IMG/VR virus record: IMGVR_UViG_3300037093_000303
Span: 1 to 21,996 of that record
DNA from: a virus
Strand: one strand, 5' to 3'
Length of the DNA: 21,996 nt
The position numbers were made by a program, and so were the translations under genes. The notes beneath the pieces are model-generated. The model made no database searches. It had not been told where the DNA came from and saw nothing but the letters and a program-made list of their open reading frames with translations. Below, one piece after another: positions 1 through 17,162 of the stretch (positions are counted from its first letter, which is position 1; each line of letters begins with the position of its first letter).

Positions 1-14
1 ACTAACCGTGGACA

Positions 15-1117: not shown

Positions 1118-1690
1118 GTACGATTTTAGCTCGAACACTTCATCGCCAGTTGCATCTAATCGCAAAGAGCAAGAATCTCCGCCTCGAGGCGCTTTGTCTT
1201 TGGGGAGCAGGGCGACGTGATTGCCTCGTATCTTTCTTTGCACACCATCGTAGCGTTCGCCTTTAGCCGTGACCCCCGGTGTGGGGTCATAGTCCACAAG
1301 GTAACCGCACGATATATGTCGCAGGTCTCCGCCCTTTATTCGCCCGATTGCGTCGGCGTCTCTAATAAGGAGGTCGGCCAGCACGTGACTCCCGTCTTTT
1401 CGAGGCGTGCCGACGACATGCCCGATAGCATCTTTTCGCCATGTACTGGCGGAGACCCGGCGACCGGGATGCCCCACGGTGACCGTGGCGTGCGCAAAGG
1501 AGTTCAGGGAATCGCCGCTCATCACCTCTTCTTCGGGTCGGTACTCTACCCGAGTGGTGCCGTCCGGGTTGCGGTAAGGGAAAAGACCCGTGTGCGTCAG
1601 CGCCCCCGTGACTAGGATAGAACCGTCGTCCAACACCTTTATAGAGGAGGCATCTAGGCGCAAGTCGTCGTAGCGGATATTTGAGGCCAC
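581..1690 (-). CDS. Prohead protease-scaffold polyprotein, DUF2213 family
   Basis: Head maturation protein of 369 residues from the GTG at 1690. The N-terminal half (to about residue 180) matches DUF2213 by its pattern: an early Gly-Ala-Leu-Thr-His-Thr-Gly segment, Val-Gly-His-Pro (about 73-76), Ser-Cys-Gly-Tyr (about 127-130) and Gly-Asn-His-Val-Ala-Leu (about 156-161). The C-terminal part, from about residue 192, is a charged heptad-like coiled coil (Leu-Gln-Glu-Arg-Val-Asp-Ala-Leu-Glu-Ala-Glu-Leu) typical of an internal scaffold. An in-frame TTG at 1696 would extend it by two codons. I prefer GTG 1690 because the TTG overlaps the last base of the TAAAAT box, whereas the GTG lies 5 nt after it, as at the other leaderless genes. 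The last TGA overlaps the cement gene start. Confidence 0.85.
   Translation of the reverse strand: MASNIRYDDLRLDASSIKVLDDGSILVTGALTHTGLFPYRNPDGTTRVEYRPEEEVMSGDSLNSFAHATVTVGHPGRRVSASTWRKDAIGHVVGTPRKDGSHVLADLLIRDADAIGRIKGGDLRHISCGYLVDYDPTPGVTAKGERYDGVQRKIRGNHVALLPKDKAPRGGDSCSLRLDATGDEVFELKSYMPDINPLQERVDALEAELATLRKADVESLRAQITVLQSELTKVRQDSTEAVQRAAVIPQERLDALVADRIAVLALAKDSDVKPEGTNIAIKRAIVVKRTPELAERADSLSEETLDTLLAVYKAQPHPSMVAAVAVHAPPPAREDAAPKVKSISQIRADALEKTHSAWKKSHGVLGADK
1118..1130 (-). promoter_or_regulatory. Internal late-type promoter GCTAAAAT for the nested scaffold
   Basis: On the minus strand GCTAAAAT (1130-1123) is followed by CGTAC and then ATG at 1117. The -10 to start-codon distance of 5 nt puts the transcription start at or next to the ATG. 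There is no -35-like hexamer 16-18 bp upstream. Confidence 0.6.
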
Positions 1691-1703
1691 GAACAATTTT
1701 AGT
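1691..1703 (-). promoter_or_regulatory. Leftward half of a bidirectional late-type promoter (ACTAAAAT)
   Basis: On the minus strand ACTAAAAT (1703-1696) is followed by TGTTC and GTG at 1690. It is the only one of the six sites with A in place of the first G. It forms an inverted repeat with the rightward site: ATTTTAG at 1696-1702 and CTAAAAT at 1709-1715, with 6 nt between. No -35-like hexamer was seen. Confidence 0.65.
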
Positions 1704-1707
1704 CTCG

Positions 1708-1721
1708 GCTAAAATGATTGC
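1708..1721 (+). promoter_or_regulatory. Rightward half of a bidirectional late-type promoter (GCTAAAAT)
   Basis: GCTAAAAT at 1708-1715 is followed by GATTGC and the ATG of the sheath gene at 1722, a 6-nt spacer. There is no Shine-Dalgarno sequence between the box and the ATG, so a leaderless transcript is expected. The box is shared back-to-back with the leftward promoter, so one polymerase would occlude the other. Confidence 0.7.
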
Positions 1722-3110
1722 ATGGGCATCGCTGACCTTTTGACAGTCAATATCACGGTCGCTGGGGCCTCCCCTCAAGGGGCGGGTTTCGGCGAGCCCC
1801 TTATCGCGTCCTATCACACCCACTACACGGACCTCGTCCGGGAATACACGTCTTTGACCGGAATGGTCTCGGACGGATTCTCCACGCACGATCCGGCGTA
1901 CGTCGCGGCTTCATCGGTGTTTGCGCAGAACCCGGCCCCGTCGGCGGTGAAGATCGGTCGCCGAGCTTTCGCGCTGACGCAGACGCTCCAAGTGGTGGCC
2001 ACGTCGGCATCAGCGAGCGACGTCTATCAGATGTTCGTCGCGCTTCCCGGGGGTCCGAAGGTGGCCGTCGGAGGCAATGTCACCTTGCCATCCGGTAAGG
2101 TGGTAGTCGGTGTGCAATCGACGGGAACCCCGGCAACGGACGGGCCTACCTTGGCCACCGCGCTGAACACGGCTATCGCCACCCTGGAAACGACGGCGCG
2201 ATCGCACGCGACCGCGTCCGGGGCAACGATTACGCTGGCTGCGACCACGGCAGGTCTTCTCTTAGACTTTTACCCGGATCGCGCACACACTACTTTCTCC
2301 GACGTGACTACGGATGCCGCAGGGCATCTCACCGCGGACTTGAACGCCATTCTCGCGGCGGACTCCGGTTGGTACGGCCTGCTATTGGATTCGCAGTCGG
2401 TCACGGAAATATCGGAGGCAGCGGCCTGGACGCAGTCGGCGGGCAAGCTCTTCGTCTGGAACAATTCGGACGACCAGAACAAGGTCCTCCCGGCGTCGGA
2501 TAGCACATCGGCCTTCGCCCTCACCATGGCCAACTCGGATTCACGCTCCCCCGGTCTTCATGCGGAGACGCAGCTCTTGTGCTACTCCGCAGCCGCGTGG
2601 ATGGGCGTTCTTTTCACTACCGTAGCCGGGTCGGAGAACTGGGCTTTCAAGACTCTTCTTGGGGTCCCTGTCGATACCATCGCCGACGGGTACATCCACA
2701 ACATCGAGAACAAGAACGGCTCCGTCTACACGCGCGTCCTGGGCGTCGCGCTTACGCAGTTCGGCAAGACACCGGACGGGGAGTGGATCGACATCATCCG
2801 AGGTCGCGATTCTTTGATCAACGCCCTGCAAGTGCAGATTGTCGCTCTTCAGGCCAACACGCTCAAGGTGCCCTACACGGATGCCGGTATCTCCCAGTTC
2901 TACTCGATCATCGATTCGACGCTGAAGCAGTTCGTGTCTATCGGCTTCTTGGCCGCAAACCCTGCCTACACCATCACCGTGCCGAAGGTTGCACAGATAC
3001 CGAGCACCAACCGAGCGGGTCGGACGATCCCGGCAGGTTACATCACCTTCCAGGCGCAGCTCGCGGGCGCTATCAACAATCTTTCGATCTCCGGCACGCT
3101 CACGGCGTAA
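1722..3110 (+). CDS. Tail sheath protein (DUF3383-like)
   Basis: A 462-residue contractile tail sheath subunit. The N-terminal segment, with Ala-Ala-Ser-Ser-Val-Phe-Ala-Gln-Asn-Pro-Ala-Pro followed by Val-Lys-Ile-Gly-Arg-Arg (about residues 60-82), matches the 'FsQnPrP...vyIGRr' signature of DUF3383 sheath-like proteins. A central Tyr-Gly-Leu-Leu and a C-terminal Asn-Arg-Ala-Gly-Arg-Thr-Ile-Pro (about 426-434) fit the fold's conserved tail region. It is the first gene of the long plus-strand tail operon and is followed 13 nt later by the tube gene, the classic sheath-tube order. Translation starts 6 nt after a TAAAAT box, so its message is probably leaderless. Confidence 0.88.
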   Translation: MGIADLLTVNITVAGASPQGAGFGEPLIASYHTHYTDLVREYTSLTGMVSDGFSTHDPAYVAASSVFAQNPAPSAVKIGRRAFALTQTLQVVATSASASDVYQMFVALPGGPKVAVGGNVTLPSGKVVVGVQSTGTPATDGPTLATALNTAIATLETTARSHATASGATITLAATTAGLLLDFYPDRAHTTFSDVTTDAAGHLTADLNAILAADSGWYGLLLDSQSVTEISEAAAWTQSAGKLFVWNNSDDQNKVLPASDSTSAFALTMANSDSRSPGLHAETQLLCYSAAAWMGVLFTTVAGSENWAFKTLLGVPVDTIADGYIHNIENKNGSVYTRVLGVALTQFGKTPDGEWIDIIRGRDSLINALQVQIVALQANTLKVPYTDAGISQFYSIIDSTLKQFVSIGFLAANPAYTITVPKVAQIPSTNRAGRTIPAGYITFQAQLAGAINNLSISGTLTA

Positions 3111-3123
3111 GGGAATACACACC

Positions 3124-3567
3124 ATGGCCATCGGCGGATTCAAGCAGTACGACGCGTCGCAAGTCGATATCGTCATCTCGGGTATCCTTATCAACTCCGG
3201 CTTCGCATCCGGGGAGTTCCTTACGATCAAGCAATCCGCGCCGGATTACAAGAAGTACGTGGGCTCGGACGGCGAAGTCGCCCGATCGCGTACTAACGAC
3301 AGGTCCGGAGAGCTTGAGATTAAGTTGGCGCAGACGTCGTCCGGAAACAGTTTTCTCACCGCGTTATCGAACTTGGACATCCTATCCAAGAACGGCGCCG
3401 GCGTCGGGGCCATGCTCATTCGAGACAAGGTTTCCGGCACGTGCATCTACACGGCCGGCAAGGTGTGGATAGCCAAGCCACCGGATGTTACCTACGACGC
3501 GGACGTGACGACCCGGACGTGGCTGCTGGAATTTGCGGACCTCACGCGCGTAGACGCCGGCTCGTGA
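3124..3567 (+). CDS. Tail tube protein (DUF3277-like)
   Basis: A 147-residue inner tail tube protein. I chose the ATG at 3124 (Met-Ala-Ile-Gly-Gly-Phe-Lys-Gln-Tyr-Asp) over more upstream starts, because those overlap the sheath gene in another frame and because an AAGGGA Shine-Dalgarno sequence precedes this ATG. The opening, with Tyr-Asp-Ala-Ser-Gln-Val-Asp-Ile-Val-Ile-Ser-Gly and Gly-Phe-Ala-Ser-Gly-Glu-Phe-Leu, and a mid-protein Gly-Ser-Asp-Gly-Glu-Val-Ala-Arg-Ser matching the 'GsdGevtRs' of DUF3277, identify the family. The end, Val-Thr-Thr-Arg-Thr-Trp-Leu-Leu-Glu, also fits. Its TGA overlaps a GTG that opens a possible 48-residue ORF. Confidence 0.85.
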   Translation: MAIGGFKQYDASQVDIVISGILINSGFASGEFLTIKQSAPDYKKYVGSDGEVARSRTNDRSGELEIKLAQTSSGNSFLTALSNLDILSKNGAGVGAMLIRDKVSGTCIYTAGKVWIAKPPDVTYDADVTTRTWLLEFADLTRVDAGS

Positions 3568-3710
3568 TAGCCGTCCTGCTATCCGGCTTTCTCTCTTACA
3601 AGGACCCCGTACCCATACCCATGTATGCGTACGGGGACTTGTGCGTAGAGATAGCGATCACGGCGCAGCCCCCGGGGGCCATAAGCGTGCTCGTGTCCGT
3701 GCTGTTCTAG
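3564..3710 (+). CDS. Possible small 48-aa protein overlapping the tube gene (GTGA)
   Basis: A GTG at 3564 shares GTGA with the tube stop codon and opens a 49-codon frame to TAG at 3708-3710, filling most of the gap before the tail chaperone. Third codon positions are mostly G or C, as in neighbouring genes. The predicted peptide is hydrophobic (starting Met-Ile-Ala-Val-Leu-Leu-Ser-Gly-Phe-Leu and ending Val-Leu-Val-Ser-Val-Leu-Phe) and Pro-rich in the middle. I do not recognise it. The frame also contains the 3605-3636 hairpin, so the region could instead be a structured untranslated leader. No strong Shine-Dalgarno site is evident; translation would depend on coupling. Confidence 0.4.
   Translation: MIAVLLSGFLSYKDPVPIPMYAYGDLCVEIAITAQPPGAISVLVSVLF
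3605..3636 (+). promoter_or_regulatory. Two-tier RNA hairpin between tube and chaperone genes
   Basis: CCCCGTAC (3605-3612) pairs with GTACGGGG (3629-3636). Inside, CATAC (3614-3618) pairs with GTATG (3623-3627), separated by a single C/C mismatch, with a 4-nt CCAT loop. No U-tract follows, so it is not a textbook intrinsic terminator. It could act as a processing, stability or attenuation element reducing expression after the abundant sheath and tube genes. Confidence 0.5.
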
Positions 3711-3732
3711 CCTTATATCAGAGAGGGCACCC

Positions 3733-4176
3733 ATGCGACAAGCTTTAGACTACACGATCCAGGGCGAGAGTTTCACGATTGAGCAGCTAGGCGCACGCGA
3801 GGGCAGCAAAGTTCTGGCGCGCCTCACGAAGGCTGTTGCGCCGGTGGCTGCCATGGCTTCGGCTGATACGACGACAGAGGAGCTGCTGGCCAAACTGCTA
3901 GAGTCGGTGAAAGAAGAAGACCTGGACTACCTGATCACGGTGTTCTCTAAGACCACGCGGGTGAATCTGTCTTCCGGCAAGAGTCTTCCGCTCGGAGACC
4001 AGTTCGATGAGTACTTCGCGGGCAAGTACGGGCTCTTGATGCAGTGGCTATACAAATGCCTCGACGCAAACTTCGCTAGTTTTTTAGCCGAGCTAGGGGT
4101 AAACCTGGCCGAGCTATCCGCCGAAGCGGGGAAGGCCATGCAAAAAGTGACGACGTCGACTGCCCCGATTGGCTGA
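3733..4176 (+). CDS. Tail assembly chaperone, short (unshifted) form
   Basis: A 147-residue, largely helical, acidic protein placed between tail tube and tape measure, the standard site of tail assembly chaperones, which bind the tape measure during tail assembly. The Shine-Dalgarno sequence GAGAGGG lies 7 nt before the ATG. The end of the gene has the lambda G/GT-type feature: an A-run at 4142-4146 after which the -1 frame is open for another 61 codons up to the tape measure start. The protein has no recognised catalytic motif. The assignment rests on position, size and the frameshift arrangement rather than on sequence identity. Confidence 0.75.
   Translation: MRQALDYTIQGESFTIEQLGAREGSKVLARLTKAVAPVAAMASADTTTEELLAKLLESVKEEDLDYLITVFSKTTRVNLSSGKSLPLGDQFDEYFAGKYGLLMQWLYKCLDANFASFLAELGVNLAELSAEAGKAMQKVTTSTAPIG
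4141..4149 (+). other. Candidate programmed -1 frameshift site (CAAAAAGTG)
   Basis: In the zero frame the codons are CAA AAA GTG. A tRNA-Lys on AAA (4144-4146) can slip back one base onto AAA (4143-4145) and continue AGT GAC GAC in the -1 frame. The site is not a perfect X-XXY-YYZ heptamer because of the C at 4141, so slippage would mainly involve one tRNA. The following CGACGTCG is self-complementary and may add a weak structure. Confidence 0.55.
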
Positions 4177-4331
4177 TCTGGCGGCCCGTCTTCAAGCACT
4201 TGGCCTCTCTCCAAGAGGTCGAAATCCATTGGTCCTTGGACGACCTTCTAGAGGCCCACGAGCTTTTGAACATAGTCGAGGACGAGGAACAACGAGCCCT
4301 AAAATCTCAAGAGTACCATGGCGCTCCGTGA
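4146..4331 (+). CDS. Tail assembly chaperone -1 frameshift extension (T-like domain)
   Basis: The -1 frame from 4146 is open for 61 codons to TGA at 4329-4331, overlapping the tape measure start by 14 nt. Joined to the first 138 codons of the upstream gene it would give a protein of about 199 residues. The extension reads like a genuine T domain: Asp-Trp-Leu-Ile-Trp-Arg-Pro-Val-Phe, then Trp-Ser-Leu-Asp-Asp-Leu-Leu-Glu-Ala-His-Glu-Leu-Leu-Asn-Ile, then an acidic, Gln-rich helix. 'LxDLxEAxExLxI' is common in phage chaperone T-type products. No ATG lies in this frame before the tape measure start, which favours frameshifting over separate initiation. Confidence 0.65.
   Translation, partial: SDDVDCPDWLIWRPVFKHLASLQEVEIHWSLDDLLEAHELLNIVEDEEQRALKSQEYHGAP
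4298..4305 (+). promoter_or_regulatory. Weak candidate promoter box CCTAAAAT before the tape measure gene
   Basis: TAAAAT at 4300-4305 is preceded by CC rather than GC. The ATG is 12 nt downstream instead of 5-6, so a message from it would carry a very short leader. It lies inside the -1 frame extension of the chaperone. It may be fortuitous. Confidence 0.2.
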
Positions 4332-6153
4332 CATACTTGTAAAATTTGGCGTCCAAGTACAGGGCGTAGAAAAGATTACGGATGTCACCCGTAAGACGAA
4401 TGCGGCTACAGGCGCGCTGACTAGCCTCGGGGCCCGGTTGGGGTGGCTGGCACGTTTCACGGCTTTGGGTTACTTGGCGCGCACTGTGCGGGACTTCGTG
4501 TCGACTCAGATCGAGGCTGCCACGGCCCTCAAGTATCAGGCGGAGAAGCTGGGAATCTCTACCGGCGAGCTGAAAAAGTATCAGTACGTAGCCGCGCGTA
4601 TGAAAGTGCCGGTCAACGAGATGGCCGTGGCTATGCGTTTCTTCAACCGGGCTGCCGGAGAAGTGGCGCTGGGTACGAAAGGCACGACCAAGATATTCCA
4701 GCAAATGGGTCTGTCCGTAAAGGATGCCCACGGCAATATCAAGCCCACGGACCAACTACTTTTCGAGTTTTCGGATAAGCTTGCCGCTATACCGTCGCAA
4801 GCCGTGCGTACCGCTTTCGCCATGCGCGCCCTAGGTAGGGGCGGCTCGGCTTTATTGCCGGTCCTTCAGCACGGGTCGGAAGCTCTGAAGAAGCAGTTCG
4901 CCCTATACGAGGCGTTCACGGGCGGCCCGTCCGCGAAGGTCATACAGCTCTCCGACGAGATCAAGGGCAAGTTGATGCTCCAACAGTTGGGTTGGAAAGC
5001 CATCTACTCGACCCTTGCGGCCGAGGTCCTTCCTATCGTCAACAAGTGGCTGGACAAGTCCAACGAGAACATAAAGCGTATGGTCGACTTGGCCCAGAAC
5101 ACGTACGGTGTGGCCACGGCCCTTCGCTTTCTGGCCGTGGCGCTCCCCGTCGCGGCCATGGTGCTCTACACTACCAAGGCTCTGTTGGCGGGGGAAGCCA
5201 CCGAGAAAATCTTGGGCACCATGGCCATGTCCGGCGTAGTGGTAACGCTGGCCGCGGTCATAGGGACCTTGTACCTCGCCTTCGATCAGCTCTACTCTAC
5301 GCTGAGCGGAGCGGATACGTCTCTCGGGCAATTGCTCGATGATACCAAAGGCTTCGGGGCAGCCAAGCAATGGGTCGATGACTTCAAGGGTGCTTTGGAT
5401 GGCCTCGTCAAGGCTATTCTAGGCCCCGATGCACAGCTAGGTACGCTGTTAGAAGACGCTGAGTTCACCTTCGCCGATGCTTTACCTACCATAGTGCGAG
5501 TCTCCGTACAGGCTTTGACCGGCTTAGCTGCTACGATTGACACCATCATCACGGGCCTTCGGATGATGCTGGATCTTCTAAAGGCCGCGGACGCGCTGAG
5601 TACGAAGAATGCCGTGGCTTGGGCCCTTAGTAAAGTCCTGCCGAAGGGCGCCATGCGCGACGAAGCCGCGGGCATTGCGGGCAAGGCTGAGGGGGATATA
5701 AAAGGCGGTTTTCAGGATATCGGGGCTACGGGGGCGGGTTGGTCGAAGCGCATTGAGGAATACCAAAAAGTTTTCCACGTGGCCGGAGAGATACCTGATG
5801 CCCCCAAAGGGTATACTCGGCGGCTTCAAGCGCGCAGGGACGCCGAGCGAGTAGAAGAAGCCCGTAAGACGGGGGTCCCGTTGGACATGGATGTAACGCA
5901 CCCAAAGCACAAGCCTTACTCTAGCAGCGCTGTAGTGCCTGCGGAGGTGCCGGCACCGAGTAAGGTGTCCAACACGGTGCATAGTAACACTACCAATAAC
6001 ATACACGTGCATACGGCAAGCACGAACGCCACACCTAGGGAGATAGCCGATGTCGTGCAGAAAGCCGTCGCGAAGGCTCTAGCCGATCGCGATAGAGCCG
6101 TGTTTGCGACTACGACGACCGCTCAACCCGATCCCTTGGCACAATACCCATGA
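4318..6153 (+). CDS. Tail tape measure protein
   Basis: The longest plus-strand tail-operon gene (611 residues), directly after the chaperone. It starts Met-Ala-Leu-Arg-Asp-Ile-Leu-Val-Lys-Phe-Gly-Val, typical of tape measure N-termini. A helical region follows with Leu-Gly-Ile-Ser-Thr-Gly-Glu-Leu-Lys-Lys (about 80-90), a common tape measure motif. Two hydrophobic stretches near residues 267-292 and 300-325 could insert into the host inner membrane on ejection. The C-terminal third is Ala- and Thr-rich. By the usual rule of about 1.5 angstroms per residue the tail would be roughly 90 nm long. No lysozyme or peptidase motif was seen. Its TGA overlaps the next ATG (ATGA). Confidence 0.88.
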   Translation: MALRDILVKFGVQVQGVEKITDVTRKTNAATGALTSLGARLGWLARFTALGYLARTVRDFVSTQIEAATALKYQAEKLGISTGELKKYQYVAARMKVPVNEMAVAMRFFNRAAGEVALGTKGTTKIFQQMGLSVKDAHGNIKPTDQLLFEFSDKLAAIPSQAVRTAFAMRALGRGGSALLPVLQHGSEALKKQFALYEAFTGGPSAKVIQLSDEIKGKLMLQQLGWKAIYSTLAAEVLPIVNKWLDKSNENIKRMVDLAQNTYGVATALRFLAVALPVAAMVLYTTKALLAGEATEKILGTMAMSGVVVTLAAVIGTLYLAFDQLYSTLSGADTSLGQLLDDTKGFGAAKQWVDDFKGALDGLVKAILGPDAQLGTLLEDAEFTFADALPTIVRVSVQALTGLAATIDTIITGLRMMLDLLKAADALSTKNAVAWALSKVLPKGAMRDEAAGIAGKAEGDIKGGFQDIGATGAGWSKRIEEYQKVFHVAGEIPDAPKGYTRRLQARRDAERVEEARKTGVPLDMDVTHPKHKPYSSSAVVPAEVPAPSKVSNTVHSNTTNNIHVHTASTNATPREIADVVQKAVAKALADRDRAVFATTTTAQPDPLAQYP

Positions 6154-6953
6154 GTTTGTTAGACGCTATCGGTCTGGGCGCAGGGACTCAAGGAGTCCCG
6201 ACGGCCGACCAAATGAACGTTGTGTCATCGGCCCCGGGGCATGATGACTCGGTCCTTCCCGCTTATATCCAATGGGGCGATCCCTCGGCGCAGAACTTTC
6301 TCATATTCGACGCGGTCATGTCCGAGACGCATACGCGCGTGGCCACCGTCACGACGCATACGGTAGAGACGGGCGTGGCCGTGACGGACCATGTGCGCCC
6401 CGAGCCGGATGAGCTCGCACTCGAGGTCATCGTCTCTAACACGCCGCTCCCCAAGTCGAACGATCCGGACATGGTCGTAGGGCCGGTGACACTTACCATC
6501 CCACAACCGAACACGTTCTATTCGATATCGGGAGCTATCGACGCGCTGGCCACGGTGATTGGGTTGAAGCCGGCCTTCCCCACGACGCTGAATGCAATCG
6601 TGGCTTCTTACCCTTCCGATCACGACTACATAAAGCTGGCGCACTTCACTTTGACGAATCTCCGTAACAACGCGCTTCTTCTGACCGTGCGCTGCCCGCG
6701 GGCCGAGTACGACAACATGGTGCTCAAGAGCGTGGTCATGACCCGCGACCCTGAGTTAGGCACGGGCGCTGCCCGATTTCGACTCGAGATGGTGCAAATT
6801 CGCACGGTAGCGTCATCAGTCGGCGCGGCTCCCCAACCCACCGTAGCAGCCGCAGCACCAACCCAGAGCAACGGAAGCCAAGAAGCTAAAGACGACGACA
6901 ATACGCCGCATACGTATACGTCCGTGATAGACAGATTTCTAGGTGTACGATAA
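6150..6953 (+). CDS. Dit-like baseplate/tail protein
   Basis: A 267-residue protein at the position where simple contractile phages encode the first baseplate component after the tape measure. The central segment Thr-His-Thr-Val-Glu-Thr-Gly-Val-Ala-Val-Thr-Asp-His-Val (about residues 67-80), followed by Pro-Asp-Glu-Leu-Ala-Leu-Glu-Val, matches the conserved start of the Dit-like domain found in many phages ('H.vE.G..vtDHv...P..l.l'). The C-terminal 40 residues are Ala-, Gln- and Asp-rich and probably disordered. It would connect the tail tube to the baseplate hub. It is ATGA-coupled upstream and TAATG-coupled downstream. Confidence 0.72.
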   Translation: MSLLDAIGLGAGTQGVPTADQMNVVSSAPGHDDSVLPAYIQWGDPSAQNFLIFDAVMSETHTRVATVTTHTVETGVAVTDHVRPEPDELALEVIVSNTPLPKSNDPDMVVGPVTLTIPQPNTFYSISGAIDALATVIGLKPAFPTTLNAIVASYPSDHDYIKLAHFTLTNLRNNALLLTVRCPRAEYDNMVLKSVVMTRDPELGTGAARFRLEMVQIRTVASSVGAAPQPTVAAAAPTQSNGSQEAKDDDNTPHTYTSVIDRFLGVR

Positions 6954-7309
6954 TGGCGCTCAATATCCCGACCGATTCCGCCGCTCTTTTCTGGACGCAG
7001 ACTACGGCCCTCGACGGCGTCAGTTACGTGCTCACATTCCGGTACAACTCCCGGGAGCAGTGCTACTACCTGAGCATAGATTCTCAGGACGGCTCTACGA
7101 ACTACGTCAACGGGCTGAAGCTAGTGTCTAATTACTTGTTATTGCGAGAGGTTTCCACGCCTCCCGGAGAGCTGGTAGTCTTGGCCATAGGCGATGACTC
7201 CCCAGCCCGTGTCGGAGACTTCGGCGGCGGTAGGTGCGCTTTATACTACATAGCGCAAGCGGACGTCATAGCCTCGGGTGCCGAGCCTTGGCGTAACCCC
7301 TATGCTTGA
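6953..7309 (+). CDS. Baseplate plug-like protein (Pam3 gp18/DUF6983-like)
   Basis: A small beta-rich protein of 118 residues. The pattern Leu-Asp-Gly-Val-Ser-Tyr-Val-Leu-Thr-Phe-Arg-Tyr-Asn-Ser-Arg (about 20-34), then Tyr-Tyr-Leu-Ser-Ile and Gly-Leu-Lys-Leu-Val, matches the short 'baseplate plug' family (DUF6983, cyanophage Pam3 gp18-like), which sits in the hub channel. Family position agrees, since it lies between the Dit-like gene and the hub gene. It starts within the previous stop codon (TAATG). The assignment is from pattern and synteny, without any search. Confidence 0.65.
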   Translation: MALNIPTDSAALFWTQTTALDGVSYVLTFRYNSREQCYYLSIDSQDGSTNYVNGLKLVSNYLLLREVSTPPGELVVLAIGDDSPARVGDFGGGRCALYYIAQADVIASGAEPWRNPYA

Positions 7310-8234
7310 TCCTACGACCAAGCTCTTCGCCCGGCAGGTCAATCTCACCATCGGCATGCCCTCGGGGCCGTTATCGCTCCCCTTCAACGATGCTAATTCC
7401 ACGGGGCTGACGGTCGACGGTCTGGACATAGAGTTCGACGTAGAAAAGTCTTTGAAGTCGTCGGAGCCTAACAAGGCTCGGATAAAGGTGTGGAATCTCA
7501 CACGGGACCACATCAAGGCGATTGGCCAAGCTCAAGCGCTCACGGTGCGTCTAGAGGCCGGCTACGAGGGCAATACGGCGCAGGTTTACTACGGCGGGAT
7601 TCGCTCCGCGCATTCTACCCGAGAGGGCGACACGGACTTTGTCACCATATTGGAATCGGAAAACACGGTAGCAAAGCCCGGGATAGTGTCCGCCACGAAA
7701 AAAGTGACGACGTCGTCCTTCGTCAGCGTCCCGCAAGGCCCTCGGGTGTCTCTGTCGTCCGCGCTTAGCACGTTGGCCCCTATCCTGGGTGTGACGACAG
7801 GGGACTTGACGGCTGCTTTGGCCGGGAAAGAAGCCATCCTGATAAGCGGGTCGTCCTTGCACGGGAACGCGGCGCAGCGCATGACCGATATCTGTCGATC
7901 GGCAGGGCTGGAATGGTCGATACAGGACGAGGTCTTGCAACTCGTAGACATCGGCAAGGCGCTCACTACGACTACGGCGTTCAACATTTCCCCGGACACG
8001 GGCTTGGTAGGCTCCCCGACGTCCGACTCCCAAGGCGTCGTAGAGGCCACGGTCCTGCTGACCCCTGGCCTAGCGCCCGGCGTCCTAGTGAACTTCGTCG
8101 GCGCCGGGGACCCTAGCGGCTTGACACCGTGCATATTCGTCAATGGCGGCGGTTACCGTATCGACAAGATCCGAGCCCACGGTAGCACCTTCAGCAGGGA
8201 CTATTACCACTCCTTTACGGCGGTGAAATACTGA
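7302..8234 (+). CDS. Baseplate hub protein (gp27/gpD/gp44-like)
   Basis: A protein of about 310 residues from the ATG at 7302, which overlaps the previous stop by 8 nt. A GTG at 7278 would add eight residues; neither start has a clear Shine-Dalgarno sequence and the ATG gives the tighter junction. N-terminal beta segments include Leu-Asp-Ile-Glu-Phe-Asp-Val-Glu-Lys (about 41-49) and Ala-Arg-Ile-Lys-Val-Trp-Asn-Leu (about 57-64), a signature of phage hub proteins in which the 'n.a.i.IyNL' strand recurs. A mid-region with Leu-His-Gly-Asn-Ala-Ala-Gln-Arg-Met (about 187-195) corresponds to the domain where a helper motif organises the trimeric hub. The next gene encodes the spike, as expected for hub-spike pairs. 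Confidence 0.75.
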   Translation: MLDPTTKLFARQVNLTIGMPSGPLSLPFNDANSTGLTVDGLDIEFDVEKSLKSSEPNKARIKVWNLTRDHIKAIGQAQALTVRLEAGYEGNTAQVYYGGIRSAHSTREGDTDFVTILESENTVAKPGIVSATKKVTTSSFVSVPQGPRVSLSSALSTLAPILGVTTGDLTAALAGKEAILISGSSLHGNAAQRMTDICRSAGLEWSIQDEVLQLVDIGKALTTTTAFNISPDTGLVGSPTSDSQGVVEATVLLTPGLAPGVLVNFVGAGDPSGLTPCIFVNGGGYRIDKIRAHGSTFSRDYYHSFTAVKY

Positions 8235-8235
8235 C

Positions 8236-8955
8236 ATGCCCATACCTCGCACGTTACCGGAGATTCTGGGGGCGCACGCTGACGTTCTGAAGAGCGATAT
8301 CCGAAAGTGCATCCCGGCCACGGTTACCGCCGTGAACGCGGCGAAGATGACGGTGGATGTTCAAGTAGCCGTCAATGACGTGCTATTCGATCCGTTGGGT
8401 AACGCCTACTCCGTAGCAGCCCCGACGATTGCGGATGTACCGCTCGGCGTGGCCCGAGGGGGTAAGTTTTTCGTGTGGGTGCCGGTGTCGGTAGGGGATT
8501 CCGTTCTGCTCATATTCTCCGACCTATCGGCGGACTCGTGGCGTCTGGCATCCAGCGCGCCCACCCAAGGCGTGGACCCCGTGTTCCTGGGGCGGCACAC
8601 CCTTGACTCGGCGTTCGCGATCCCTATGTTCGCGCCCGACTCCCAGGCGTTAGCAGACCCCGCGCTCGACCCGACGAAAATTATCATAGGCCGGGACGGC
8701 GGGCCGGAGATCAAAGTCTCTCCGGCCGGGATAGAGCTTGGAGCGGCGGGCGCGACCCCGCCCTCCGATTACGTGGCCTTGGCATCTAAAGTTGAAACGG
8801 AATTGAACGCCATAAAGGCGAACATTACCGACATTCTAACGGCATTGGCTGCGGCTGTTTCTCTGCCTACGGGCGGCAAATTGACTTTTGCACCCTCTTT
8901 GCCTTCGCCCTATTCCCCCGGTCCCGTAGCTTCTTCCACCGTAAAATGCGCGTAG
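8236..8955 (+). CDS. Baseplate spike protein, Gp138-like (membrane-puncturing)
   Basis: A 239-residue protein with the N-terminal OB-like domain of Gp138-type spikes: Cys-Ile-Pro-Ala-Thr-Val-Thr-Ala-Val-Asn (about 24-33), Met-Thr-Val-Asp-Val-Gln-Val, Ile-Ala-Asp-Val-Pro-Leu (about 63-69) and Val-Gly-Asp-Ser-Val-Leu-Leu-Ile-Phe-Ser (about 89-98). These match the conserved pattern 'p..v..v.dvPv......f..p...Gd.vll.f'. After about residue 150, Ile-Lys-Val-Ser-Pro-Ala-Gly-Ile-Glu-Leu-Gly begins the beta-helical or apex part. It would form the trimeric needle tip at the end of the tail tube. The end of the gene precedes the next promoter. Confidence 0.78.
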   Translation: MPIPRTLPEILGAHADVLKSDIRKCIPATVTAVNAAKMTVDVQVAVNDVLFDPLGNAYSVAAPTIADVPLGVARGGKFFVWVPVSVGDSVLLIFSDLSADSWRLASSAPTQGVDPVFLGRHTLDSAFAIPMFAPDSQALADPALDPTKIIIGRDGGPEIKVSPAGIELGAAGATPPSDYVALASKVETELNAIKANITDILTALAAAVSLPTGGKLTFAPSLPSPYSPGPVASSTVKCA

Positions 8956-8968
8956 GCTAAAATTCACC
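8956..8968 (+). promoter_or_regulatory. Late-type promoter GCTAAAAT before the baseplate wedge gene
   Basis: GCTAAAAT (8956-8963) is followed by TCACC and GTG at 8969, a 5-nt spacer. No Shine-Dalgarno sequence precedes the GTG. A second TAAAAT (8942-8947, preceded by CG) lies 16 nt upstream and has no start codon at the right distance. The promoter sits inside the tail operon, so baseplate wedge genes would get extra leaderless transcription. Confidence 0.65.
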
Positions 8969-9355
8969 GTGTCCTGCTTTCTGATGACATCCTCTGGCGA
9001 TCTGGATTTCTCGACGGGCAATCTTTCGATAGTCCGCGGCGTGGCCCAGGTTACGGCTCAGAAACTTACAGCACTATACTCTATCGCACAAGGGGAGTGG
9101 TTCATCGACGGACGCCTAGGGGTCCCATACGTGACGCAAGTTTTGATCAAGAACCCGAGCCTTAGCAGCATCAGCACAATGCTCATAAACATCGCTCAGA
9201 AGTGCCCGGGCGTGGCAGCCGTGAGCAGCATCAAGATGAACTACACGCCGAACGTGCGCACGCTCGGGGCCACGCTCACGATAATCACGAATGATGGCGC
9301 CGTTCTCTCTGGGGGCCTTGGCCAACCTTTTATTGTCACGAGGCAAGCGACATGA
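8969..9355 (+). CDS. Baseplate wedge protein (gp25/gpW-like)
   Basis: A 128-residue protein. The opening Leu-Asp-Phe-Ser-Thr-Gly-Asn-Leu-Ser-Ile-Val-Arg-Gly (about 12-24), then Val-Thr-Ala-Gln-Lys-Leu-Thr-Ala-Leu-Tyr and Gly-Glu-Trp-Phe-Ile-Asp-Gly-Arg-Leu-Gly-Val-Pro-Tyr (about 42-54), match gp25/gpW and DUF2634-like wedge proteins ('L.l..G......l...L.t..GEw.lD...G.p'). The GTG start is supported by the promoter box 5 nt upstream. The downstream overlap (ATGA) with the J-like gene reproduces the usual W-J order of contractile phages. Confidence 0.82.
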   Translation: MSCFLMTSSGDLDFSTGNLSIVRGVAQVTAQKLTALYSIAQGEWFIDGRLGVPYVTQVLIKNPSLSSISTMLINIAQKCPGVAAVSSIKMNYTPNVRTLGATLTIITNDGAVLSGGLGQPFIVTRQAT

Positions 9356-10563
9356 GCATCAACAATCTGACGGCTTCGGGCTTTGTAGCCTCTACGGTGA
9401 CGGAAGAGGTTACCTACCTCAACGGCCAGGTACAGACCCTCATCGATCCGAACCTGGATGTCGACCCGGATCAACCCCTAGGGCAAATCATTGGCATCTT
9501 CGCCGCGGAGTTTGCAGCCGCGACCGAACTCTTGGCCACGGTTTACAATTCGATGAACCCTGCCGCGGCCGAGGGCACCTTGCTGGCGAACCTGGCTTCC
9601 CTCACGGGGACCTATCCGCAGGTCGCTACGTATTCCACGGTCCCTTGCAACCTCACGCTAAGCGCGGGCACCACGGTAGGGGCCGGTTCTACTATCTCGG
9701 TCCCCGGACAACCCACGTCTAATGTTTGGAGCTTGCTCACCGCCGTAACGGCGCCTAGCGGCGGGGGTGTCGTCCCCGGGTCCTTCCAAGCCACGGTGAC
9801 GGGGCCTCAGAACGTGACCTCGGGCACGAGCATGGTCATTTCGCCTACGATTACGGGTTGGTCCGCTTGCGTAACTACGGCGAATGCCACGCAAGGTCAA
9901 AACGCGGATACAGACACCACGCTTCGGACTCGGCGAATCGAAGAGCTCGGGGGCGAACAGTTCGGCACTACCGCCGCAATCCAAGCCGCTGTTCTGGCCG
10001 CGGTGACGCCTTACGCCGGGGGATCGCCATCAGGCGCTTGGTGCTACGAGAACACATCGTACGCCTCGGACGCGAGCGGCGTGCCCCCGCATAGCATCCA
10101 TGTGGTCTACTGGGCCGGGGCGTCAAACATAACGCCGTCGACAACCCTGGCAAACATCATAGCCCAAGCGATATGGTCGCACAAGGGTGCAGGCGTCGGC
10201 ACCTACGGAGCTTTGTCGGGCGTGGCCACGGATGCCTTAGGCAATAACTATACCATATACTTCGACGTGGGGACGGCGGTGCCTGTCTACGTGTCGCTGA
10301 ACACAACGCCCAACCCCGTCACCACGGCGCAGCGCGCGGCTATTGTGACCGAGCTGACGACCTTCACGGAGCAGACGTGGACCTTCGGGACGACCGTGAA
10401 GGTTATTCCTCTGCTGGCCAGCGTGCTAAATGGCGTCGCGGGTCTTGTCGACATTCCCACCTACGGCATCGGTCTCGCGCCTGCACCGGTGACTACGGGT
10501 AACATCGTCATGGGCCCCACGCAGATAGCAATCCTCAGTGGTATCCTAGTGAACGGAACATGA
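9352..10563 (+). CDS. Baseplate J-like wedge protein (gpJ/gp6 family)
   Basis: A 403-residue wedge protein. The N-terminal helix pair around Pro-Gly/Leu-Gly-Gln-Ile-Ile-Gly-Ile-Phe-Ala-Ala-Glu (about 42-52), Asn-Ser-Met-Asn-Pro-Ala-Ala-Ala-Glu-Gly-Thr-Leu-Leu-Ala-Asn-Leu-Ala (about 64-80), a beta stretch, then Gly-Gln-Asn-Ala-Asp-Thr-Asp-Thr-Thr-Leu-Arg-Thr-Arg-Arg (about 182-195) form the signature of the baseplate J family ('G.d.EtD..lr.R'). The middle and C-terminal parts hold the alpha/beta domain that joins wedges into the ring. ATGA overlaps are present at both ends. Confidence 0.87.
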   Translation: MSINNLTASGFVASTVTEEVTYLNGQVQTLIDPNLDVDPDQPLGQIIGIFAAEFAAATELLATVYNSMNPAAAEGTLLANLASLTGTYPQVATYSTVPCNLTLSAGTTVGAGSTISVPGQPTSNVWSLLTAVTAPSGGGVVPGSFQATVTGPQNVTSGTSMVISPTITGWSACVTTANATQGQNADTDTTLRTRRIEELGGEQFGTTAAIQAAVLAAVTPYAGGSPSGAWCYENTSYASDASGVPPHSIHVVYWAGASNITPSTTLANIIAQAIWSHKGAGVGTYGALSGVATDALGNNYTIYFDVGTAVPVYVSLNTTPNPVTTAQRAAIVTELTTFTEQTWTFGTTVKVIPLLASVLNGVAGLVDIPTYGIGLAPAPVTTGNIVMGPTQIAILSGILVNGT

Positions 10564-11132
10564 TCCCCGCTCAGAACTTTGACATCGCCACGGGCGGCAC
10601 GGCGCTGCTGACGTCGGCCTACGCGAACAAGCCCGGGATATCGGCGCTTGTGACGGCCTTCTCGAATCGCTTTCAGGTCTTGGAATCGCAAATGGGGTCC
10701 ATCCTGAACGGCATCAACCTGGCCAATCATCCCATGCCCGGGGGTCCTTGGGACGTGCTCGACAAGTACGGTCTAATCGTAGGGGAATCCCGGCAAGGTC
10801 GGAGCGACGCGGCTTATCTGCCCGCCCTGCGACTCCGCGTTTTGGTGAACAATTCCCACGGTTTGGTGTCGGACATAATCGCCGTTGCTAGCGCTATCTT
10901 GACCCCCGGCGGGTACACCTTCGTATACTCCGAGGCTCCGGACCAGACCTTCTTGATCACGGCCCTCGGAATACCGGACGCGGACATCGCGGCGCTTTTC
11001 CAGTACCTCCCTTTGGCTCGGGACGGCGGCGCCGACGCCCACATAATAGTTTCCAGCCCCGGAGACGACGTGCTGATCTGGGGTAACACTTGGGACGCTG
11101 CGACGACGCTCGCATCCGAAGAGGTAAAATGA
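10560..11132 (+). CDS. Baseplate/tail protein, DUF2612-like (gpI position)
   Basis: A 190-residue protein at the gpI position after the J gene. Leu-Asp-Lys-Tyr-Gly-Leu-Ile-Val-Gly-Glu-Ser-Arg-Gln-Gly-Arg-Ser-Asp-Ala-Ala-Tyr (about 67-86) followed by Leu-Arg-Leu-Arg-Val-Leu-Val-Asn-Asn-Ser-His-Gly (about 90-101) matches the DUF2612 pattern 'LD.lG..vG..R.g..D..yR..l...i..N.s.Gt'. It probably links baseplate wedges to tail fibres. The sequence end GAGGTAAAATGA also carries the Shine-Dalgarno sequence and ATG of the next short gene. Confidence 0.78.
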   Translation: MIPAQNFDIATGGTALLTSAYANKPGISALVTAFSNRFQVLESQMGSILNGINLANHPMPGGPWDVLDKYGLIVGESRQGRSDAAYLPALRLRVLVNNSHGLVSDIIAVASAILTPGGYTFVYSEAPDQTFLITALGIPDADIAALFQYLPLARDGGADAHIIVSSPGDDVLIWGNTWDAATTLASEEVK

Positions 11133-11230
11133 CGGCCTACATACGCGCATTGTGGTTACGCCTAAGCGCGGCCCCCTTCAAATGGGGTTGCCTATGGGGA
11201 AACAACATCTTTTTTGAAGGAGACGAGTAA
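11129..11230 (+). CDS. Small 33-aa protein between baseplate and fibre genes
   Basis: A 34-codon frame that starts at an ATG overlapping the previous stop (ATGA) and ends in TAA overlapping the next ATG (TAATG). A GAGG sequence lies 4 nt before its start. The peptide is rich in Trp, Leu and Arg at the start and ends Trp-Gly-Asn-Asn-Ile-Phe-Phe-Glu-Gly-Asp-Glu. Overlaps at both ends and high GC in third positions argue that it is translated. Tiny 'WG-n-fxw' proteins next to tail fibres occur in other contractile phages; I recognise no function. Confidence 0.6.
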   Translation: MTAYIRALWLRLSAAPFKWGCLWGNNIFFEGDE

Positions 11231-12438
11231 TGCTTTCCGTGACTTTCCCGTGGTCTTCTGCGGTCAACTATCCTTCCGGCCCGGATGTCGGTACGGCAAC
11301 GAAAGTGGTCCCCACCGCTAATCAGTTCATCCGAGGCACGCCGGCTACGGCGCAGACCTTCGACTATCTTCTGAACGAGCGCGACACCTTTGCGCAGAAC
11401 AGCAGCCCCTTGACTTGGCAAAGCCCGCTCCCTACCACGGGTTACTACAGCGGGGCCTGGTACGACTCCCTGCAAGGTGTTTGGCTCCTAGGCACTAACC
11501 CGACCGGCGGCGGAGCCACGGCCTTCCAGGCTCTTTGGAACCCCGGCACGGCATCCAATAACAGCGCGCCCATTACGGGTTCGACCTACGGCACGACGCA
11601 GCCTATGACTCTGAGTTACAATTCGGAGCACCCGGGGGCATACGCCGTCATCAGCACGGGCTCGCCCGGCTCGGCGGGCACGGCAGAGGTCTTCTACTTC
11701 GGGCCTGCGGGTACCGGTCTGACCCACGCTTACACTGTCACCCTTGTAACGTCTGTCACGTGCGCGGAGCTGGTATATGTGCCGAGTTGGCCAATGCTGT
11801 ACGCTATGGGCAGTTCCAGCGGTTGGTCTGTTCTGTCCGGTCTGGCATCGCCCTCTATCGTAGCTTCTAGCTCCGTGGCCAGCACACAAGTCATGGCGCG
11901 GAGTAGCGGCACCACGGCCATATTCGCTAGCAGCGTTGATCCGTCGTACGTCACGACCACGGACGGGCACACCTTCGTAACCCGAGCCTTCCCGTCCGCT
12001 ATGAACATAGGGCCGGGTACATTGCAATACCAGCTAGCAGGAATAACCTGGCACTCGTCCATACTTGGCTCCGTGTGGGTGGCTAATGTCGCCAAGGTGA
12101 ATACCAGTGCGATAAGTACCTGGATTTCTCTGGACGCTATCACGTGGACGCAACAGAGTTCCCTCGTCGTGGTGTCCACGCATATCGGTGCGGTCATAGA
12201 CCTGGCTTCGGCCGGGCATCACCTAGCGGCGGTGTGCGCTTTCGTGCCCTCCTACCCGCAGACCTGGAACACGACGCTATCCCGTATCCTTACGTCTGAG
12301 GACTTGGGCGTCACTTGGCACATGTCCCCGGGTGCTGTACTCGGCGACTTGAACCCCCGGATCTACTCGGGCAACGGGCAATTCTATGTCACCGGGGGCG
12401 GCAGTGCCGTGTTCTCCGATAAAGTGATCGAAGTCTAA
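11230..12438 (+). CDS. Tail fibre/receptor-binding protein with propeller-like repeats
   Basis: A 402-residue protein preceded by a strong GAAGGAG Shine-Dalgarno sequence. After an N-terminal attachment segment of about 70 residues it shows roughly seven recurrent short beta units, near residues 77, 128, 181, 221, 272, 323 and 377, spaced mostly 50-55 residues apart. Three contain Asp-box-like loops: Thr-Thr-Asp-Gly-His-Thr-Phe (about 243), Ser-Leu-Asp-Ala-Ile-Thr-Trp (about 300) and Ser-Glu-Asp-Leu-Gly-Val-Thr-Trp (about 356). This suggests a seven-bladed BNR-type propeller. Its place at the end of the baseplate operon makes it the likely host-recognition protein. It could also be an accessory fibre. 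It converges with the RuvC-like gene, overlapping it by 4 nt. Confidence 0.7.
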   Translation: MLSVTFPWSSAVNYPSGPDVGTATKVVPTANQFIRGTPATAQTFDYLLNERDTFAQNSSPLTWQSPLPTTGYYSGAWYDSLQGVWLLGTNPTGGGATAFQALWNPGTASNNSAPITGSTYGTTQPMTLSYNSEHPGAYAVISTGSPGSAGTAEVFYFGPAGTGLTHAYTVTLVTSVTCAELVYVPSWPMLYAMGSSSGWSVLSGLASPSIVASSSVASTQVMARSSGTTAIFASSVDPSYVTTTDGHTFVTRAFPSAMNIGPGTLQYQLAGITWHSSILGSVWVANVAKVNTSAISTWISLDAITWTQQSSLVVVSTHIGAVIDLASAGHHLAAVCAFVPSYPQTWNTTLSRILTSEDLGVTWHMSPGAVLGDLNPRIYSGNGQFYVTGGGSAVFSDKVIEV

Positions 12439-12875
12439 ATCGCGCCGCTGCGTATGCGGCCCCAGGGTTGCCGCAAAGACCACTGGCCAAGCCCAATAGC
12501 GTCGAGCATGTTGTGTTCGACGCTCTTGGTCATCTTCGGCAGCTGGTCTCGCGTGTCGGCCGATAGCGTGGCCTTGATGCGCGCGGCCATGATATCGCCG
12601 TCGATAGTGCCCTTCCACTCCCGCGGCTCCACTAGGCGAACGGTGTGGTCGGAGTATCGCTCCTGATACCGCCCCACGCACCTGGCTAGGTGTAATATGC
12701 TTGTGACCGTACCCTGCGAATAGATCCGGGCCGGACTCTCGATAACTACCAGGTAAGTCCTCGGGACGCTTACGGGTTCGTCCGGCGTTACGACCCCGGC
12801 CTTGACCAAGACGCCGAGGGTGAAAATAGCGTACCCTGTATGCAGACCGGGGTCTAGAGCGAGTATGTTTCCCAT
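12435..12875 (-). CDS. RuvC-like Holliday junction resolvase/nuclease
   Basis: A 146-residue RNase H-fold nuclease. It begins Ile-Leu-Ala-Leu-Asp-Pro-Gly-Leu-His-Thr-Gly-Tyr-Ala with catalytic Asp8, has Val-Val-Ile-Glu-Ser-Pro with Glu46, and near the end His-Asn-Met-Leu-Asp-Ala-Ile-Gly-Leu-Gly with His121 and Asp125, the expected D-E-D set with the RuvC-like spacing of a helix-borne final Asp. Phage RuvC-type resolvases trim branched DNA before packaging. A strong sigma-70-type promoter (TTGACG, 17 bp, CATAAT) ends 6 nt before the ATG, so its transcript is probably leaderless. It lies opposite to the flanking tail and portal genes. Confidence 0.85.
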   Translation of the reverse strand: MGNILALDPGLHTGYAIFTLGVLVKAGVVTPDEPVSVPRTYLVVIESPARIYSQGTVTSILHLARCVGRYQERYSDHTVRLVEPREWKGTIDGDIMAARIKATLSADTRDQLPKMTKSVEHNMLDAIGLGQWSLRQPWGRIRSGAI

Positions 12876-12910
12876 ACACGCATTATGGGACCCCGGGGAT
12901 GTTACGTCAA
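12876..12910 (-). promoter_or_regulatory. Canonical sigma-70-type promoter for the RuvC-like gene
   Basis: On the minus strand TTGACG (12910-12905) is followed by a 17-bp spacer containing CCCCGGGG and then CATAAT (12887-12882). GCGTGT (6 nt) separates it from the ATG at 12875. The -35 and -10 match the consensus at five of six bases each with optimal spacing. Expected transcription start is at or near the ATG, so a leaderless mRNA is likely. It overlaps the stop codon of the upstream minus-strand gene. Confidence 0.7.
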
Positions 12911-13306
12911 GGTCTTAGTCGCTAGGCGCTTCCACGTCTCGCGCTCCGCGGCCGTGAGCCGGGAGAAGTCCGCTAAACCCGTAGAGTCCTTCGGAGACCC
13001 GTCGACGCCTGCGCTAGGCTGCGGGGGTGGGGAATACTTGAGGACTAAATCCAGCAGGGCTATAATCTGCTTGGGGTCTAAAGGTCCTACAGCGTTCTCG
13101 TAGTCGGGATGCCGGCTAAGGCGAAGCCATTTCTCCACCTGCCCCGCGGCAAGCTCCAAGGCAGACGTCTGGAACTTGTTCAAAGCCACCGCTCGGCGGG
13201 CGCGCTCAAGAGCGGCTTGCCCTCGCGCTTCCTCCGTCTCCGCAAGAGCCGCAACTTCCGGCCGTTCCCTAGGCGGCACCCATTTCGCAATATGCTCTTT
13301 GGCCAT
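12902..13306 (-). CDS. Unknown 134-aa protein, possibly small terminase subunit
   Basis: A 134-residue protein divergent from the portal. The N-terminal half is helical and charged (Ala-Leu-Glu-Arg-Ala-Arg-Arg-Ala, then Leu-Ala-Ala-Gly-Gln-Val-Glu-Lys-Trp-Leu-Arg). The middle holds Leu-Asp-Pro-Lys-Gln-Ile-Ile-Ala-Leu-Leu-Asp-Leu (about 76-87), followed by a Pro/Gly-rich linker and a basic end. No small terminase gene is otherwise seen in the window, and helical proteins of this size near terL and portal are often TerS, so that is a guess from context. No DNA-binding motif is clear. It starts 5 nt after the leftward TAAAAT box and is probably leaderless. Confidence 0.6.
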   Translation of the reverse strand: MAKEHIAKWVPPRERPEVAALAETEEARGQAALERARRAVALNKFQTSALELAAGQVEKWLRLSRHPDYENAVGPLDPKQIIALLDLVLKYSPPPQPSAGVDGSPKDSTGLADFSRLTAAERETWKRLATKTLT

Positions 13307-13319
13307 GCTCTATTTTAGC
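13307..13319 (-). promoter_or_regulatory. Leftward half of palindromic late-type promoter
   Basis: On the minus strand GCTAAAAT (13319-13312) is followed by AGAGC and ATG at 13306. It forms one arm of the perfect 14-bp palindrome ATTTTAGCTAAAAT (13312-13325). No -35-like hexamer and no Shine-Dalgarno sequence were seen. Confidence 0.7.
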
Positions 13320-13330
13320 TAAAATGTCCC
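13318..13330 (+). promoter_or_regulatory. Rightward half of palindromic late-type promoter
   Basis: GCTAAAAT (13318-13325) is followed by GTCCC and the portal ATG at 13331. Its -10 core is immediately back-to-back with that of the leftward promoter, so polymerase can occupy only one orientation at a time. Confidence 0.7.
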
Positions 13331-15716: not shown

Positions 15717-17162
15717 TTACACTTCGTGCGCAAGCCACTTCCGGACTTGCACCATGGCAGGTGCCAGCCACGACTCGTTTTGCTGTAAGTATAAAAGCGC
15801 TTGTGTAGTGGCATCCACCCTATCGTCATACGCGGAGCGGGGGAAAGTTAGAAGCTCCGTGATGTACCCTGCGACCCAAGGGTGCTTATCAGGGTCCGGC
15901 AAATGAACGTTACCCGCCTGGAACAGCCCCGAGCAAGCCGAGGCGCGGGAGAACTTGCCGCCGCGAGGGTCAACGGCTACGAGACCGGACAGCTTCGATT
16001 GCAGGACTTGCAGAACGGCCGCGCCGTTGGCTTTCTCCTCAATGAGCTTGGCCGTAGCTTGTGGCCATCGCTTGGCTTGATCCCGGATACGATCCAGCGC
16101 CGTCGAGAACGACATGCGATCCCAGGCTTGGTCGAGTAGATAGAAGTCCGCGCCCTTGCGGCCCCACACTTGGCCGCAAGCATAATCGGAGGACTCGCCG
16201 TCCTTGTAGGCCAGATCCCACGAGAGTATCACTTGATCGAACGCTTTAGGCGCTTCCGGATAGAACTTCAGCCACTCCCTTTGGAAGATCGCGCCGCCTT
16301 CGGGCACGGGCTGTTGATCCAACTGCGCAGCGGCGTTCATCGAGCCCAGGTTCCGGCGCAGCTTGTCTATCAGGTTTTGCGGCAACCTGTGGGGGTCTAA
16401 GAGCTCGCCCTCTTGAGTCCGCGGGTCGTAACCGTAAGGCGTACGGCAGCGTCTCTTCGGGTCGAAATTAGCCGGGAGCATCAAGTGCGTGGCGCCCCTG
16501 TCGAGAAACATCTGGGCCAAATCGGAGCAGTGTAGGCGCTGCATGATGCAGATCAGCCCCGTCTTTTGCGGAGGCTTCCTCCAGCGCGTCGACATCGTTC
16601 GCGCGTACCAATCGCGAATGTTCTGTAGGCCAACGGCTGACGCATCCTCGGGCTTGTTCGGGTCGTCAAGTATCTGGATGTTCGCGTGCAAGCCCGTGGC
16701 CTTACCCCCTGGCGTTGTGCCCAGTCGGAAACCCCCCTTATCGTTCACCACGTAATCGACGGCTGCCACCGTGGGCAGAGAGAAGCGGTCTCCCCAACGC
16801 GCCTGATACCATTTCGATCGCATCAAGTCTACGGTCTTATTCGAGTCCCGGCGGAAAATTAGCTCCGCATACGTGGCCATTATGAGGGCTAACGCAGGGT
16901 CCCGTATCCAAAGCCATGCGGGGAAAAGGACGCACGTTATGCAGGACTTCGACGAATTAGGGGGGATATTCACTACGAGCTCGTCAATTTCCCCTCGAAA
17001 GACGGCCTCGTAATGTTCCGCCATGAGCGGAATGTGCCAGTTATCCTGGAACGGGGAGTCCGCGTATACCTGCGACCACGCCATCTTGATGAAGTCGTAG
17101 AAGGAATCCTTTAGCCCTATCTCCCGATCGCAGGCTATGATCTCCTCAGAATCCTCAAGCAT
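15717..17162 (-). CDS. terL: Terminase large subunit
   Basis: A 481-residue packaging motor. The ATPase domain has a variant Walker A, Pro-Pro-Asn-Ser-Ser-Lys-Ser (67-73), in place of the usual Pro-Pro-Arg-x-x-Lys-Ser, and Walker B Ile-Leu-Asp-Asp-Pro (164-168). The nuclease domain has Ser-Trp-Asp-Leu-Ala-Tyr-Lys with Asp316, Ile-Glu-Glu-Lys-Ala-Asn-Gly (Glu375/376) and Asp-Asp-Arg-Val-Asp-Ala (446-451), the acidic triad of the RNase H-like headful or cos nuclease. Its ATG overlaps the sigma factor stop codon as TAATG, with a GGAAGG Shine-Dalgarno sequence, so terL is co-translated after the sigma factor. The family is clear; the packaging type is not determinable here. Confidence 0.92.
   Translation of the reverse strand: MLEDSEEIIACDREIGLKDSFYDFIKMAWSQVYADSPFQDNWHIPLMAEHYEAVFRGEIDELVVNIPPNSSKSCITCVLFPAWLWIRDPALALIMATYAELIFRRDSNKTVDLMRSKWYQARWGDRFSLPTVAAVDYVVNDKGGFRLGTTPGGKATGLHANIQILDDPNKPEDASAVGLQNIRDWYARTMSTRWRKPPQKTGLICIMQRLHCSDLAQMFLDRGATHLMLPANFDPKRRCRTPYGYDPRTQEGELLDPHRLPQNLIDKLRRNLGSMNAAAQLDQQPVPEGGAIFQREWLKFYPEAPKAFDQVILSWDLAYKDGESSDYACGQVWGRKGADFYLLDQAWDRMSFSTALDRIRDQAKRWPQATAKLIEEKANGAAVLQVLQSKLSGLVAVDPRGGKFSRASACSGLFQAGNVHLPDPDKHPWVAGYITELLTFPRSAYDDRVDATTQALLYLQQNESWLAPAMVQVRKWLAHEV

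Follow-up and report, generated by a model that had tools for sequence, protein, structure and literature searches.

The stretch of DNA analysed here, called the window, measures 21,996 nt and comes from an uncultured family of tailed phages that appears to turn on its virion genes through one short sequence box. The genes and box copies that bear on this box are collected in Table 1; the tape-measure gene (ATG at 4318) was likewise identified by family searches, while the same searches gave no family for the 134-aa gene. Elsewhere in the window, the protein encoded at 19251-19889 on the minus strand carries an ADP-ribosyltransferase domain (PF03496, E 1.1e-8), and long degenerate repeats (by eye, a pattern like AxVxG) form reading frames at 17779-18315 and 20976-21996, also on the minus strand.

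Table 1. Box copies and genes of the window. N5 and N6 give the number of nucleotides between box and start codon.
Feature	Position	Strand	Remarks
Nested scaffold, 178 aa	581..1117	-	in-frame ATG within protease gene; weak PF06810 Phage_scaffold match, below cut-off
Head maturation protease, 369 aa	581..1690	-	PF09979, phrog_530
GCTAAAAT box	1123..1130	-	N5 before ATG 1117 of nested scaffold; inside protease gene
ACTAAAAT box	1696..1703	-	N5 before GTG 1690 of protease
GCTAAAAT box	1708..1715	+	N6 before ATG 1722 of sheath
Tail sheath, 462 aa	1722..3110	+	phrog_205
CTAAAAT box	4299..4305	+	12 nt before tape-measure ATG 4318
GCTAAAAT box	8956..8963	+	N5 before GTG 8969 of baseplate wedge gene
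Baseplate wedge subunit, 128 aa	8969..9355	+	phrog_120
134-aa gene	12902..13306	-	adjoins portal throughout family
GCTAAAAT box	13312..13319	-	N5 before ATG 13306 of 134-aa gene; back-to-back overlap with portal box
GCTAAAAT box	13318..13325	+	N5 before ATG 13331 of portal
Portal, 711 aa	13331..15466	+	PF06381, phrog_146
Terminase large subunit	15717..17162	-	PF17289, phrog_38; directly downstream of sigma gene; no own box
Phage sigma factor, 203 aa	17162..17773	-	PF04542 E 2.5e-11, phrog_351

An earlier note on this DNA had described GCTAAAAT as a promoter class consisting of a -10 element only, placed for leaderless late messages. All five copies that it reported are present, where dinucleotide shuffles of the window lead one to expect 0.33, and none of 100 shuffles reached five. 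With the first base of the box free to vary (CTAAAAT), six sites of the form CTAAAAT-N4-8-RTG are found against 0.13 expected, including the ACTAAAAT variant. As the note had said, they lie 5 or 6 nt from an ATG or GTG (N5 at five sites and N6 at the sheath alone), and every one of these start codons is in frame with a real gene. This inventory of six sites stands, with the addition of a seventh CTAAAAT, ahead of the tape-measure gene, that had been overlooked.

An out-of-sample test is provided by an overlapping contig, G001 (IMGVR_UViG_3300037099_000441, 37,990 bp), which matches positions 1-13693 of the window with 69 mismatches and contributes 24,297 bp of sequence outside it. This new sequence holds four copies of CTAAAAT, three of them exactly N5 before an ATG; 300 shuffles gave a mean of 0.09 such close sites and never more than 2. 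The genes so headed are a 511-aa tail-fibre-like gene, a 183-aa gene and a short gene. The replication half of the contig (polymerase, helicases, primase, clamp) has a single CTAAAAT, which does not stand at N5-6 before a called gene. G001 also encodes a DnaN-like sliding clamp (L054, 11955-13031, minus strand; TIGR00663, E 4.9e-22), the kind of protein that activates late transcription in T4.

Over ten contigs, none of the 16,384 heptamers is as enriched as CTAAAAT at N5-6 before the in-frame RTG of called genes (19 of its 36 copies, p 4e-32), the genes having been called with a simple codon-usage scorer written for this analysis. Permuted heptamers occupy that place in 7 of 630 cases, and the box is thus not equally common away from start codons. 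Across the clade, spacing is N5-6 at 41 of 86 box copies, a count that is somewhat favourable in that the spacing table prefers 5 or 6 among alternative starts; the heptamer rankings, both pooled and per contig, are independent of this preference. Counted before any RTG, 43 of 99 box copies in the clade (354 kb) stand at N5-6. The pattern is lacking in an outgroup of 68 loci (973 kb, capsids 28-39% identical), where the figure is 7 of 108. A scan of IMG/VR for ATTTTAGCTAAAAT-N5-ATG returned 41 stretches; those beyond the near relatives were AT-rich contigs without related genes and were set aside as chance.

Relatives were found by query scans with the portal (44-68% identical) and the capsid (51-59% identical), and the box recurs across this clade at about 35-70% protein identity. 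In a survey of gene heads that used a degenerate pattern and a 200-nt zone, it was found before the orthologous portal, protease, nested scaffold, sheath and baseplate wedge genes, either unchanged or as CTAAACT or CTAAACC, with spacers that differ in sequence between orthologous sites. With near copies included, the box heads the wedge gene in each of the nine contigs where this gene occurs and the protease in 11 of 12. Most relatives carry the nested-scaffold box at the same place inside the protease gene, six (G007, G011, G012, G015, G018 and G019) have a divergent pair beside the portal, and in G007, G019 and G022 the tape-measure box lies 12-37 nt or more upstream of its gene. A further overlapping back-to-back pair, ATTTTAGCCGGCTAAAAT, occurs away from the portal at 40926-40962 of G017 (L098). 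The control genes (mcp, tube, terL, sigma, hub and second wedge) gave sporadic matches only, none at N5-6; the box is missing from most downstream operon genes, and the replication genes examined have no N5-6 box.

A correction to the earlier note is that the form of the box varies by lineage: CTAAAAT, CTAAACT in G014 and G022, CTAAACC in G024 and perhaps CTAGANT in G016, at similar places, with two forms mixed in G017. Single-contig tests agree, in that the top heptamer is CTAAAAT in G001, G019 and G025, CTAAACT in G014 and GCTAAAC/CTAAACC in G024; in G007, G017, G018 and G022, the box is among the top few or appears only at wider spacing. G016 lacks CTAAAAT and CTAAACT although the sigma gene is present, and only weak CTAGANT-like variants are seen. 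The heads of its portal and 134-aa genes (L089) read GCTAGACT-N4-GTG and GCTAGAGT-N9-ATG, and these may be this contig's form of the box. Capsid and terminase trees, against which box class was set, did not resolve their backbone and so gave no count of box changes.

The proposal of a promoter class is supported by these results, but the probable trans-acting factor, a 203-aa phage sigma encoded in the window itself, had been overlooked. This protein comprises sigma regions 2 and 3 and ends after a region-4.1-like helix. PF04542 (sigma-70 region 2) is found in all six orthologues, profile alignment of six sequences from five lineages to solved sigmas extends through regions 2-3 to the LSxxxRxxL start of region 4.1, soon after which the proteins end, and no region-4 family matched the orthologues at E up to 1. 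A structural model built from an alignment reached pLDDT 74 and superseded a poor single-sequence model (pLDDT 51); its best matches are sigma factors, with low TM-scores of about 0.4. Orthologues were found in six relatives. The gene lies between a phosphoesterase gene and terL in the window, G007, G014, G016, G017 and G022; in G025 it adjoins the phosphoesterase gene. The G019 contig includes the tail of the gene only, and a sigma of this kind is absent from four outgroup contigs of 44-58 kb. Named phages gave no match to the sigma at 1e-5 and only weak hits above that value, and a search for the host in a species-genome collection, by sigma and by portal alignment, returned no match. One stretch of the protein, ATPxSRPKxADLPRA, is common to the two CTAAACT lineages and absent in the others, which is a hint, from sequence comparison, that sigma and box may be matched. 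We infer that the 203-aa sigma is the probable reader of the box.

Our reading, to which we assign a probability of about three in four, is that GCTAAAAT is the -10 element of the family's late promoters, mostly leaderless, with the phage sigma as its reader. Host RNA polymerase carrying the sigma would recognise the box, region 2 would melt and hold it, and a -35 element would be dispensable for a protein that ends before region 4.2. At most sites initiation would fall on the first base of the start codon, A or G, and the resulting leaderless message would be translated without a Shine-Dalgarno sequence, later genes of the operon presumably depending on Shine-Dalgarno sequences or coupling. 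Where the box lies farther upstream, as it does in a minority of cases (tape measure, tail assembly chaperone and some sheath genes), it would yield a short leader, often with a Shine-Dalgarno sequence, and the box within the protease gene would allow the scaffold to be made separately. The start codon begins 6-7 bases past the box, which matches the start distance of 6-8 bp given for the phiEco32 sigma gp36 (PMC8948821). Against this, N5 is one base under the usual sigma-70 start distance, and under the 6-7 bp of Deinococcus (PMC12340547). The lack of both main box forms in G016, the mixture in G017 and the low TM-scores of the sigma model also weigh against the reading.

The most probable alternative is that a host rich in leaderless genes reads the box with its own sigma-A, as an ordinary -10 element of the TANNNT class, and that the phage sigma has some other role. 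Several phyla have many leaderless genes with a -10 element about 12 bp away (PMC3160421), and TATAAT-N6-ATG occurs at family genes outside the virion block, namely at two replication-half genes of G001 (L054 2876 and 3253, both minus), which share upstream sequence, and at two genes in G017. Leaderless expression is therefore probably normal in the host, and leaderless placement, which the earlier note had presented as a trait of the late class, holds for the virion genes but extends to those two replication-half genes. However, TATAAT and CTAAAAT head different sets of genes and are spaced differently (N6 for the former, mostly N5 for the latter), the phage sigma is conserved in the clade, and the drift to CTAAACT or CTAAACC, which takes in every orthologous site of a lineage, better fits a lineage-specific phage reader. 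On balance, we consider a host sigma-A promoter unlikely.

The anatomy of the sites bears on a second alternative, in which the box is a ribosome-bound signal for translation initiation and not a promoter. Among 64 pooled and aligned family sites, the box, a slight C/G excess just upstream and the start codon are the only conserved features; the -35 zone has no conspicuous position, in keeping with the original description, and the window sites do lack a Shine-Dalgarno sequence. More broadly, none is seen at N5-9 sites (median -3.0, the same as random 20-mers), the average for genes that lack a box is stronger (-5.2), and at N10-29 sites a strong one lies within the short gap in 9 of 17. Leaderless placement consequently applies to most sites but not to about a fifth, at which 10-29 nt separate box and start codon and frequently include a Shine-Dalgarno sequence. 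This contrast between near and far sites is the one expected of a promoter, whose RNA would lack a leader when the box is close and carry one when it is far; the Shine-Dalgarno sequences in the longer gaps argue that the box acts as a promoter and not as a ribosome signal. A ribosome signal would explain why most sites keep a fixed distance from the start codon, but in several lineages the box of the tape-measure and chaperone genes lies 12-40 nt off with a Shine-Dalgarno sequence between, and the box is a -10 look-alike missing from most genes inside operons. We have rejected it as very improbable.

The back-to-back pair between the portal and the 134-aa gene forms a perfect 14-bp palindrome, ATTTTAGCTAAAAT, at 13312-13325, as might the operator of a regulator. 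In relatives, however, its halves lie tens of bases apart, each at a constant distance from its own start codon, and most box sites are single; an operator was accordingly rejected as scarcely credible. Chance or shared descent of near-identical sequence has next to no likelihood: G002-G006 and G009 are indeed near-identical and thus no independent evidence, but the held-out sequence, shuffles, permuted heptamers and outgroup contradict it, and orthologous sites retain the box despite their different spacers.

Neither phage sigmas that read a single element nor leaderless genes are new in themselves; what is new here is the placement for leaderless messages, the scaffold promoter within another gene and the drift of the box. 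In the open-licence literature, of which coverage was partial, we found no phage late regulon that combines a single-element sigma with leaderless genes. A fuller version of the reading, in which a dedicated phage sigma that has lost its -35 reader controls a late regulon with leaderless operon heads as a built-in feature, with an intragenic scaffold promoter and a box and sigma that drift together, is put forward tentatively, at somewhat less than even odds. If it is true, the late switch would change promoter reading and translation initiation at once. The family comprises about a dozen lineages with orthologous promoters and a varying box, several with the presumed reader sigma, and thereby offers a natural data set for sigma/promoter co-evolution. 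In practical terms, the box helps to fix gene starts and indicates the nested scaffold start.

Transcripts of the Thermus phage P23-45 are reportedly leaderless. Its middle and late promoters are independent of a -35 element and of the extended -10 class, but they are served by host sigma-A with gp39 blocking region 4, and no phage sigma is involved (PMC7403470). Closer in kind is gp55 of T4, a diverged sigma with a region-2 fold that reads only a -10-like 8-bp box at late genes, the -35 region not being conserved; gp55, however, works with gp33 and the sliding clamp, whereas here the box is CTAAAAT, set against the start codon (PMC2988020, PMC7892883). The sigma gp36 of phiEco32 similarly lacks region 4 and uses single-element tAATGTAtA promoters without a -35 element at middle and late genes, with starts 6-8 bp downstream. 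Its promoter sequence is different, leaderless placement is not described in the portion of its account consulted (PMC8948821), and the search of named phages detected no sequence relationship between gp36 and the sigma of the window. In Deinococcus-Thermus and Actinobacteria, leaderless genes carry TANNNT 6-7 bp before the ORF and no Shine-Dalgarno sequence (PMC12340547, PMC3160421), and thus share with the phage sites a -10 element adjoining the start codon; in those bacteria TANNNT is read by the host sigma, whereas here one specific box at N5 before virion genes would be read by a phage sigma. By analogy, then, the phage system would work like phiEco32 gp36 and T4 gp55, while being placed like the leaderless genes of bacteria.
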